Assembly (NCBI GenBank): GCA_022826385.1
Contig: JAJDUZ010000027.1
Span: 1-64,000, forward strand
DNA: 64,000 bases
Source of the DNA: Silicimonas sp.
Lineage (GTDB): Bacteria > Pseudomonadota > Alphaproteobacteria > Rhodobacterales > Rhodobacteraceae
Direction: 5' to 3'
The notes below the pieces were generated by a model, which was not told where the DNA came from, searched no databases, and saw nothing but the letters and a program-made list of their open reading frames with translations. Positions 56,881 through 59,683 of this stretch are shown piece by piece. The position numbers were made by a program, and so were the translations under genes. Position 1 is the first letter of the stretch; the number at the start of each line of letters is the position of its first letter.

Positions 56881-57369
56881 CTATTGGTCATCCGGAGTTT
56901 CGTCCGAGGTGAACCAGCCTTTGGCGGTTTGCACCCATCCGCTGGTCGTCACTTTAGTGGCTTCAGTCGCACTTTCCGTCATGGCAACCGCGCGTTCGGT
57001 CAGAGTTGGCTTGGCTGCCGCTTCGCGCAGCTTTTCGGTGCTGATATAGCCAAGCCCGCCTATAACCGCTGCCGCACCCGCGACGCTCATGACCACGCGG
57101 GCGATGACGGAACTGCGCCAGAGATAGCGCAAAGTGTATCCCAGAACGCTGCTCTTTCTGAGGCTCAGCGGTCCGACATCCGTATAGGTTTCGGCGCTGA
57201 ACCAAAGCATGAAGACAGCCCAGATGACGGGCAGAACAAGCAACACGATCCCAAGGATGGGCGACTGCGCCAGTACCACAAGCGAGATCGCCAGATAGAT
57301 CAGGAACGCGATCAGGCGAACCTTCATTCCGCCGGTCATGCCGGACCAGTAGCCTTGCGTTTGGCTCAT
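56881..57369 (-). CDS. hypothetical membrane protein
   Basis: MSQTQGYWSGMTGGMKVRLIAFLIYLAISLVVLAQSPILGIVLLVLPVIWAVFMLWF, hydrophobic segments. Confidence 0.7.
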   Translation of the reverse strand: MSQTQGYWSGMTGGMKVRLIAFLIYLAISLVVLAQSPILGIVLLVLPVIWAVFMLWFSAETYTDVGPLSLRKSSVLGYTLRYLWRSSVIARVVMSVAGAAAVIGGLGYISTEKLREAAAKPTLTERAVAMTESATEATKVTTSGWVQTAKGWFTSDETPDDQ

Positions 57370-57460
57370 CGTCACTCCTCGCCCCAAGGAAGAGGTCATG
57401 ACTCAAACGGCCTAATTCAAGGCGAGGTCGCAAGATCAGCAAACGCCGTTGCAAAAACGC

Positions 57461-57490
57461 AAAAAACCCGCGCAGCGGCAGCTACGCGGG
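57461..57490 (-). terminator. Rho-independent terminator after hsp20
   Basis: Minus strand CCCGCG...CGCGGG stem followed by TTTTTT. Confidence 0.8.
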
Positions 57491-57513
57491 CTTCGAACTG
57501 GATCGAGCGCCGA

Positions 57514-57972
57514 TCAGGAGGCTTCGACAGCCTTTGCGTCGACCGTCTCGCCGTTCAAAATCTCGATGCGGCGGGGCTTCAGCGCTTCGGGCACTTCGCG
57601 CAGCAGATCGACATGCAGCATGCCGTTCACGTGGCTGGCGCCGGTCACACGAACATGGTCGGCAAGCGTGAAGCGACGTTCGAAGGCGCGGTTGGCGATC
57701 CCGCGATGAAGATACGTCCGCTCGTCAGTGTCCTCGGACTTCCGGGCAGACACGACAAGGGCGTTCTCGCGAACTTCAACCGACAGGTCTTCTTCGCCAA
57801 AACCGGCCACGGCGATGGAAATACGCCAGGCGTCGTCAGCGGTTTTTTCGATGTTATAGGGCGGATAGGACGGGGTCTGGGCCGTGTCGGCCAGAATGCG
57901 GTCCATCATGTCGGCGATTTGATCGAAACCGACGGTTGCACGATGCAAAGGTGCAAGGTCAAACCTTCTCAT
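57514..57972 (-). CDS. Hsp20/alpha-crystallin family small heat shock protein
   Basis: MRRFDLAPLHRATVGFDQIADMMDRI...YPPYNIEKTADDAWRISIAVAGFGEEDLSVEVRENALVVSARK. Confidence 0.94.
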   Translation of the reverse strand: MRRFDLAPLHRATVGFDQIADMMDRILADTAQTPSYPPYNIEKTADDAWRISIAVAGFGEEDLSVEVRENALVVSARKSEDTDERTYLHRGIANRAFERRFTLADHVRVTGASHVNGMLHVDLLREVPEALKPRRIEILNGETVDAKAVEAS

Positions 57973-57973
57973 A

Positions 57974-58024
57974 AGGTCATCCTCCATTGAGCGATACCAG
58001 ATCAGCCTTCCCATTGGGCAAGGC
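57974..58024 (-). promoter_or_regulatory. candidate ROSE-like RNA thermometer in hsp20 5' UTR
   Basis: mRNA GCCUUGCCCAAUGGGAAGGC hairpin, then GGUAUCGCUCAAUGGAGGAUGACC hairpin sequestering GGAGGA; UCGCU motif opposite AGGA. Confidence 0.6.
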
Positions 58025-58091
58025 ACTTTTCAGTCGCCGGACCCGTCATTGGCGCCCGACAAAATCGAGATAGGAACATCGAATTCGGGGT

Positions 58092-58748
58092 TCAAGAGGG
58101 GTCGTTCAACATGTCGAGCAGCGGCTGTATCCGCGAGCGCGCATTCGCGGCCACCGCGACGGACCGGCCGCCCTGTTGTGCCCTGCTGTTGATGACGGCG
58201 ACCAGTTCGACGCCGTCCTCTTTCAAACGCAGGACGGGTCCGCCGCTTTCGCCACCTTGGACGATGCAGCCCAGCGTCACGACAACTGGTATCGCACCGT
58301 CGATCACAACGCATCTACGGGTTCTCGGTCGCGTGCGCGACATGCCGCGCCAACTGGCCAGAAAAAGCCCTTCACCCGCCTCAGCTTCCGGACCGATGTC
58401 GAACGGCACGGCGGTGGCTGGATCAACTGGTGTCGCAAGTTGCGCAACGGCTATGTCGAACCGCAGCCGCAGCAGGCGCTGATTTTGGAAGCTGGTGTAA
58501 TGGGGATGAACCACCACGCGTTGCACCCGTATCGGATCGGCATCTACATCGCTGCCAAGTCGGAATGTGTATCCAACCCCGTCATCTTCCTTGACGCAGT
58601 GCGCAGCCGTCACGATGACGTCGGGCCGCACGAGCGACGCAGAACAGCCGCCGCCGCTTTCGTTTTCAATCCTGCCTGCGGCCTTGAACGGATCTGCAGT
58701 GGCAGGAACGGCAAGGCAGCAAAAGAACCAGGCAAGAGCGAAGCGCAT
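58092..58748 (-). CDS. secreted trypsin-like serine protease
   Basis: Signal peptide; VTAAHC, FDIAVAQL, GESGGPVL catalytic triad. Confidence 0.9.
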   Translation of the reverse strand: MRFALAWFFCCLAVPATADPFKAAGRIENESGGGCSASLVRPDVIVTAAHCVKEDDGVGYTFRLGSDVDADPIRVQRVVVHPHYTSFQNQRLLRLRFDIAVAQLATPVDPATAVPFDIGPEAEAGEGLFLASWRGMSRTRPRTRRCVVIDGAIPVVVTLGCIVQGGESGGPVLRLKEDGVELVAVINSRAQQGGRSVAVAANARSRIQPLLDMLNDPS

Positions 58749-58783
58749 TCTTGCATCCTGCAAGTCGTTCAGACCGGGTCAAG

Positions 58784-59611
58784 TCACGGTCGCAGGAATT
58801 TGGCCCCATCCCGGCCAGACAAGCGGCGCTTCTCATCGGGACGAATGATGTTGACCTTGGGTGCGGCCGCAACGGCACCGGTCCCGCTGTTCAAGAGGGC
58901 CATCATCTCGGACAGTGGCTTTTCGAGGTTTGTTCCAAGCGCCACCTTGCGCCCGCGCACCTCGGCTTTGGCGGAGACGACCGAAACGATCCGTGGTTGT
59001 CCGTTCTCTTCCGCAAAAATGGGTGCTCCAGACGACCCGAAGTCGACATTGCAAGAAAGAACAAGCGATCCGCGCTGGCGGGCCAGCACGTGGCACACTT
59101 CCTGGATCGAAGGTGAATCCGCGCGATCATGTGCATATGAGACAACGCCCACCTGCTGCCCCTTGCGCGGACGTTTGGCCGTCTGGAAGGGCGCAACGCT
59201 GGGCAAACGGATGTCGCTGACCAGCTCGAACAAGGCCAGATCATTGGCCACGTTGCCTGCAGCTTCGGTGCCCGTGAACACGTAGTCCGGGTGGATGACG
59301 ATGCGACCGACCTTGCGCGAGGCAGTGGCGTGCCCATTGCGGAAGCCCGCGTGGAACACGATGTCTCTTGCTTCGATCAGATCGCCGGAATGAGCATCGA
59401 ATGCGCAATGCGCTGCAGTGAGAACGATGCGAGGCGAGATCATGGCGCCGGTGCACATGCCGCCCCAACCGATGTTCAAACGGCCAACGGCCTCCCAGCC
59501 GCGCGCGTCATAGGCTGTCATGATCTTCATCAGCTCCGACGGCTGATTGTCCTGACTGGCGGCCGTGGTGGCGCAAAATGCCGCGAAAACTGCGGCAAGC
59601 ACACGTCGCAT
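58784..59611 (-). CDS. secreted trypsin-like serine protease (second)
   Basis: Signal peptide; LTAAHC, NDLALFEL, GSSGAPIF triad. Confidence 0.9.
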   Translation of the reverse strand: MRRVLAAVFAAFCATTAASQDNQPSELMKIMTAYDARGWEAVGRLNIGWGGMCTGAMISPRIVLTAAHCAFDAHSGDLIEARDIVFHAGFRNGHATASRKVGRIVIHPDYVFTGTEAAGNVANDLALFELVSDIRLPSVAPFQTAKRPRKGQQVGVVSYAHDRADSPSIQEVCHVLARQRGSLVLSCNVDFGSSGAPIFAEENGQPRIVSVVSAKAEVRGRKVALGTNLEKPLSEMMALLNSGTGAVAAAPKVNIIRPDEKRRLSGRDGAKFLRP

Positions 59612-59683
59612 ACCGAACCTCTTCCCTCTTCGGGGTCCGACGTTACTGATGCCTTGCGGCAAGAATATGTCGACCCGGAAGAA

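Follow-up and report, generated by a model that had tools for sequence, protein, structure and literature searches.

The ibpA locus and its leader

The window, a stretch of 64,000 nucleotides of Silicimonas sp. DNA, carries on its minus strand a small heat-shock gene (57514–57972) that encodes an IbpA-like protein of 152 amino acids and matches PF00011 with an E-value of 1.2e-18. The best NCBIfam match of the protein is IbpA, at a score below the cut-off of that model, and the protein is 48% identical to E. coli IbpA in an alignment that begins at Met1, which bears out the ATG at 57972 as the start codon. The reading frame stays open upstream of this ATG as far as a GTG at 58026, and a previous sequence-only reading of this DNA had pointed to an in-frame ATG at 57987-57985 from which translation might start instead. 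That ATG is not conserved and sits in the loop of a hairpin (hairpin 3, described below): among 86 relatives, 12 have the CAATGGAGG form and 19 have an upstream ATG in an open frame. Given the Met1 alignment and the non-conserved ATG, the upstream ATG and GTG were rejected as probable translation starts.

Two adjacent genes for trypsin-like serine proteases (58095-58763 and 58787-59662, minus strand) lie directly 5' of ibpA on the same strand; the gene closer to ibpA ends at the -35 box of its promoter. Downstream of ibpA, a pattern scan picked up a weak terminator-like hairpin with a T-run (57463–57494, minus strand), a single site compared with 0.9 expected in shuffles. Beyond it, again on the minus strand, lies a gene for a small membrane-like protein (56881-57399) that has no Pfam or NCBIfam match.

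Upstream of ibpA, we found a putative RpoH-type (heat-shock sigma) promoter on the minus strand at 58068–58096, with the -35 box CTTGAAC (58096-58090) and the -10 box CCTATCT (58074-58068). As a consensus match only, it resembles the sigma-32 consensus NNCTTGAA-N13-18-CNCCATAT (PMC3669281). A pattern for it, written after viewing the alignment, occurs in 78 of 86 family relatives compared with 1.9 in shuffles. A sigma-70 promoter scan gave no match, as expected for an RpoH promoter. Judging by the promoter, the transcript would begin near 58064-58059, upstream of all hairpins; a start inside a hairpin is what the sequence-only reading had named as a refutation. Hairpin 1 follows directly 3' of the heat-shock-sigma-like promoter, which implies that the leader is some 90 nt long and comprises three hairpins. 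From 5' to 3', the order is promoter, hairpin 1, hairpin 2, hairpin 3, and the ATG at 57972.

The minus-strand leader is as quoted in the sequence-only reading, and the two hairpins proposed there (58024-58005 and 57998-57975) are real and fold as described. Its statement that the element comprises only two hairpins was wrong. Hairpin 1 (58035–58061, minus strand) lies further upstream and is part of the element: a full-length match to the Rfam model RF00435 extends into it, folding recovers it, and it covaries in relatives. Hairpin 2 (58005–58024, minus strand) has the form GCCUU[G]CCC AAU GGGAAGGC, and the Shine-Dalgarno (SD)-masking hairpin 3 (57975–57998, minus strand) reads GGUAUC[G]CUC AAUG GAG GAU[G]ACC; both are supported by folding and by pairing across the family sequences. 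The SD sequence GGAGGA (57980–57985, minus strand), assigned from the sequence and the folds, has five of its six bases paired in hairpin 3. In the predicted structure, the 5' strand of each hairpin has a bulged G immediately beneath a short upper stem, at 58053 (below a CC/GG pair) in hairpin 1, at 58019 in hairpin 2, and at 57992 in hairpin 3. RNA folding of the single window sequence yields all three hairpins, with energy z-scores of -1.1 for two hairpins and -2.1 for three.

Conservation, covariation, and a second element

Genomes used for comparison were those labelled as belonging to the same family (the nearest named relatives being Rhodobacteraceae), class, or phylum. Unguided RNAalifold analysis of 21 sequences (alignment A1), out of 110 ibpA upstream regions of relatives, returned the same three hairpins, with changes on both sides in 10 of 22 pairs. 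A covariance model, R1, was built from 21 relatives, all of the same family. R1 detects the window site with an E-value of 8e-17, whereas the next-best site in the same genome reaches 3.85. Of 150 family genomes searched with the model, 136 have the element, and about 119 of these had not contributed to its training; a search of 190 genomes from across the class gave matches in 46. R1 also matches 85 of the 86 supplied family ibpA upstream regions.

Among 85 family sequences (alignment A2), 94.0% of cells pair compared with 80.1% after shuffling, 20 of 25 pairs show changes on both sides (14.0 shuffled), and 305 cells are doubly changed (79.9 shuffled). None of 500 shuffles came up to the real alignment in any of five measures, and the signal vanished when the strands were shifted against each other by one to three columns. 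A2 was fitted to the model structure and therefore favours it, whereas A1 with unguided RNAalifold was not so fitted. Pairing is found in 97.2% of cells in hairpin 1 and 95.8% in hairpin 2, with both-side changes in 8 of 9 and 6 of 7 pairs, respectively. The core of hairpin 3 is paired in 99% of cells and nearly invariant, and its outer three pairs in 67%. Hairpin patterns, likewise written after viewing the alignment, occur in 79 (hairpin 1), 81 (hairpin 2), and 86 (hairpin 3) of 86 family members, compared with 0.9-2.1 in shuffles, the promoter pattern included. The comparative evidence for an RNA structure is decisive, whereas the energy of the single sequence is weak evidence.

In hairpins 1 and 3, all 85 family sequences have the bulged G. 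In hairpin 2 it occupies the same column in 66 of 85; the window and its closest relatives have it one place further 3' (GCCUU[G]CCC compared with GCCU[G]UCC). By motif count, UCGCU or UUGCU is present in 83 of 86 family members and UCGCU in 80 of 86, while other sampled alphaproteobacteria are mixed, with 13 UUGCU and 10 UCGCU.

Weak R1 matches (E-values of 0.003-0.08) were also seen in genomes G018, G020, and G546. In G018 and G546, UCGCU-SD look-alikes stand before genes other than hsp20; the G020 match shows no evident SD hairpin before a start codon. Weak R1 matches in two family genomes have a UCGCU/SD-like hairpin (AUCGCUC..GGAGGAU) immediately 5' of genes whose products resemble a sugar-binding protein and the ATPase of an ABC transporter. 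ABC transporter genes preceded by ROSE-like elements have been described (PMC11342760).

The other hsp20 gene of the same genome has a short two-hairpin ROSE-like leader (contig C72, 30499-30559, plus strand). We rejected the view that this gene is without an element: the short element is evident with the start codon further downstream. The gene and 27 relatives share a promoter ending in CATAT, followed by two hairpins ahead of the start codon, one with a bulged G (GGUY[G]CC..GG..) and the other masking the SD sequence (GUC[G]CUU..AAGGAC). A covariance model for the short form, R2, gave matches in 134 of 150 family genomes, the genome of the window among them (2.6e-10), and more than 100 of these genomes had not been used for training; the search threshold was E 0.1, so the weakest matches will include chance ones. 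Covariation in the short element is limited because its stems hardly vary, and an Rfam scan of this leader listed no ROSE family at E <= 10. In one Roseobacter-clade strain, Nautella sp. R11, ibpA and hspD are already reported to be preceded by ROSE motifs (PMC3230580). The likeness lies in ROSE-like motifs 5' of two small heat-shock genes, although the main text of that paper gives them one sentence, without sequence or structure.

Relation to known ROSE elements

The sequence-only reading had suggested a search with the Rfam ROSE models. This gave a full-length match to RF00435 (58059-57966, model positions 1-94; E 0.024 in 501 bases), which at 28.5 bits stays below the gathering cutoff of 45 bits, a bookkeeping threshold of the library rather than a biological feature. 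Accordingly, an Rfam scan of the window at the gathering threshold returned nothing, and the match appears in the permissive scan only. Across the 3.4-Mb genome it is the sole RF00435 match at E <= 10 (E 0.039), with nothing at E <= 0.001. The top RF00435 match of many other family genomes is the ortholog at the same place 5' of ibpA. Model RF01832 (ROSE_2) gave no match at the window site at E <= 10.

Only one RF00435 match in 150 family genomes exceeds the cutoff (genome G163, C1:527325), and it is separate from the R1 element of that genome (C1:4213709). At its current cutoff, RF00435 thus misses nearly all ibpA elements of the Rhodobacteraceae family. The alignment to the model suggests that the low score is likely due to a different hairpin 2 and to UCGCU in place of UUGCU. 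The G163 element at C1:527325 (examined region C1:527200-527700) has the canonical UUGCU and lies 5' of a different Hsp20-like gene. This genome therefore carries an extra UUGCU ROSE besides its ibpA element and a short-form match, possibly through horizontal acquisition.

With RF00435, the window leader shares a 5' hairpin with a bulged G and CC/GG, UYGCU opposite AGGA in the SD hairpin, and a small heat-shock gene. It differs in the hairpin 2 stretch, which is unaligned to the middle of the model (28 model positions, 24 bases), and in having UCGCU where the model consensus has UUGCU. With RF01832, represented by E. coli ibpA, it has in common the ibpA gene, an almost identical hairpin 2 core (gCCUGUCC..GGAAGGc), and an SD hairpin with a bulged G (CUCGCUG..CAGGAG in E. 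coli); the E. coli SD hairpin is, however, shorter and predicted to be less stable than that of the window (-4.6 compared with -7.5 kcal/mol). The short ROSE of Pseudomonas ibpA has a U(U/C)GCU SD hairpin and a sigma-32 promoter as well, but consists of two hairpins in about 62 nt (PMC3669281), whereas the window leader has three in about 90 nt.

R1 also matches E. coli ibpA, a validated ROSE gene that scores 100.4 bits with RF01832. The R1 match (27.7 bits, E 7e-6 in 6.5 kb) ends 5 nt past the ATG. In E. coli, hairpin 1 (AGGACGC[G]CC UGAU GGGUGUUCU, 3514-3490 of the examined locus L119) has the same bulged-G CC/GG layout and lies 5' of the RF01832 boundary; hairpin 2 reads GACCU[G]UCC AUUGU GGAAGGUC and hairpin 3 CUC[G]CUG AUUU CAGGAG. 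As predicted by these folds, the three-hairpin, bulged-G layout is common to the window leader and E. coli ibpA. Of 14 non-alphaproteobacterial sequences, 10 match the pattern for hairpin 1, 12 that for hairpin 2, and all 14 that for hairpin 3, compared with 0.0-0.3 in shuffles; these sequences were hand-chosen and the patterns written after viewing the data, so the counts illustrate rather than test the layout.

Typical of ROSE elements are three or four hairpins and the motif U(U/C)GCU (PMC3669281). Held against the descriptions in PMC3669281 and PMC11342760, the window element adjoins the ATG at 57972 in the 5' UTR of an IbpA-like Hsp20 gene, its U(U/C)GCU motif pairs imperfectly with the SD sequence in the 3'-most hairpin and includes a bulged G, and it has three covarying hairpins, where two to four are described. 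Its promoter matches the heat-shock sigma consensus, a usual but not strictly defining feature. The ROSE interpretation made in the sequence-only reading agrees with the position of the element, the SD-paired U(U/C)GCU, the number of hairpins, the gene, the type of promoter, and the covariation across the family. We are highly confident that the leader is a ROSE-class RNA thermometer in the ibpA 5' UTR; the element is an ordinary member of this class.

Proposed thermosensing and alternative readings

The sequence-only reading described UCGCU as having a G.G opposition and an extra C. The simplest predicted pairing of the SD hairpin is AUC-[G]-CUC/GAG-GAU, in which the G at 57992 is the single bulged base and no C is unpaired, so that the extra C falls away. 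A G.G opposition is possible and lies beyond what secondary-structure prediction covers. In the NMR structure of the B. japonicum ROSE, the bulged G forms a non-canonical pair with a G on the SD side (reviewed in PMC8346122 and PMC9450479), and the opposition may therefore hold in three dimensions. Deleting an unpaired C as a test thus finds no support, and the residue to delete is G57992. Deletion of this G is an established test of ROSE elements, as in P. aeruginosa delta-G39 (PMC3669281) and P. stuartii delta-G44 (PMC11342760), with a weaker effect in P. putida alone (PMC3669281). In silico, removing G57992 changes hairpin 3 from -6.3 to -10.1 kcal/mol, i.e., makes it 3.8 kcal/mol more stable, and removing either neighbouring C (C57993 or C57991) exposes the SD sequence.

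We propose that transcription from a heat-shock sigma promoter would yield an mRNA whose leader, about 90 nt long, forms three hairpins. The first two, both GC-rich, probably remain closed throughout. In hairpin 3, the anti-SD strand AUC[G]CUC would pair with GAGGAU and conceal the ribosome-binding site as long as the cell is at growth temperature. This hairpin is predicted to be weakened by its bulged G and would open on heat shock, allowing IbpA to be translated.

An alternative would be a fixed structure that masks the SD sequence at all temperatures, with heat induction through the promoter only. Nearest-neighbour folding with ViennaRNA shows little opening up to 57°C, the mean unpaired probability of the SD sequence being 0.18 at 25°C, 0.21 at 42°C, and 0.29 at 57°C, but the same software leaves the validated E. 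coli ibpA thermometer closed too. Moreover, a bulged G that is invariant in all 85 family sequences and destabilizes hairpin 3 by a predicted 3.8 kcal/mol would be odd in a static lock, and we regard this alternative as very improbable. It is harder still to credit that the leader holds no RNA element, i.e., that the hairpins arose by chance or reflect constraint at the DNA or coding level, such as translation from the upstream ATG or GTG. The frame open to the GTG at 58026 and the modest single-sequence z-scores would fit such a view, which is in the main refuted by covariation, with compensatory changes far above the controls. It also conflicts with the alignment of IbpA Met1 at 57972 and with the lack of conservation of the upstream ATG.

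The thermometer reading may be extended by chaperone feedback. IbpA proteins of E. coli, Cedecea, and Vibrio repress their own translation via the 5' UTR and need R93 to do so; in E. coli IbpA, Y34 and basic residues at 97/98 are also required, with K98R tolerated, and alphaproteobacterial proteins are noted to conserve R93 and Y34 (PMC10474464). By alignment, the corresponding residues of the window protein are Y36, R95, R99, and R100, whereas E. coli IbpB is without the full set of self-repression residues. Given that the window IbpA keeps these residues, added feedback is possible. The ROSE thermometer might also bind IbpA through hairpins 1 and 2 and stay off until heat and IbpA-titrating clients both relieve it. 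This proposal is tentative, and the assignment of hairpins 1 and 2 as an IbpA binding site is a conjecture. The residues essential for self-repression in E. coli IbpA speak for it, as does the fact that hairpins 1 and 2, which are not needed for SD masking, keep a bulged G and a CC/GG core from Rhodobacteraceae to E. coli. On the other hand, conservation of these hairpins could serve folding, since disruption of hairpin I causes derepression in Pseudomonas (PMC3669281). It is a rather doubtful but conceivable generalization that the ibpA ROSE leaders of alpha- and gammaproteobacteria are one homologous three-hairpin RNA with a G bulged below each upper stem. Their upstream pair of hairpins would then be a conserved putative docking site for IbpA, the whole would act as a combined sensor of temperature and chaperone availability, and the version at the second hsp20 gene would lack one upstream hairpin.

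The value of these findings is modest and lies mainly in showing what the database misses, in the layout of three hairpins shared with E. coli, and in the leader of the second hsp20 gene. In the family, the R1 element in 136 and the short form in 134 of 150 genomes stand against one RF00435 match above the cutoff. The models R1 and R2 and the shared three-hairpin layout provide a concrete basis for revising the Rfam ROSE families. The conserved non-sensing hairpins, together with the conserved RNA-binding arginine, make the role of the upstream ROSE hairpins directly testable.
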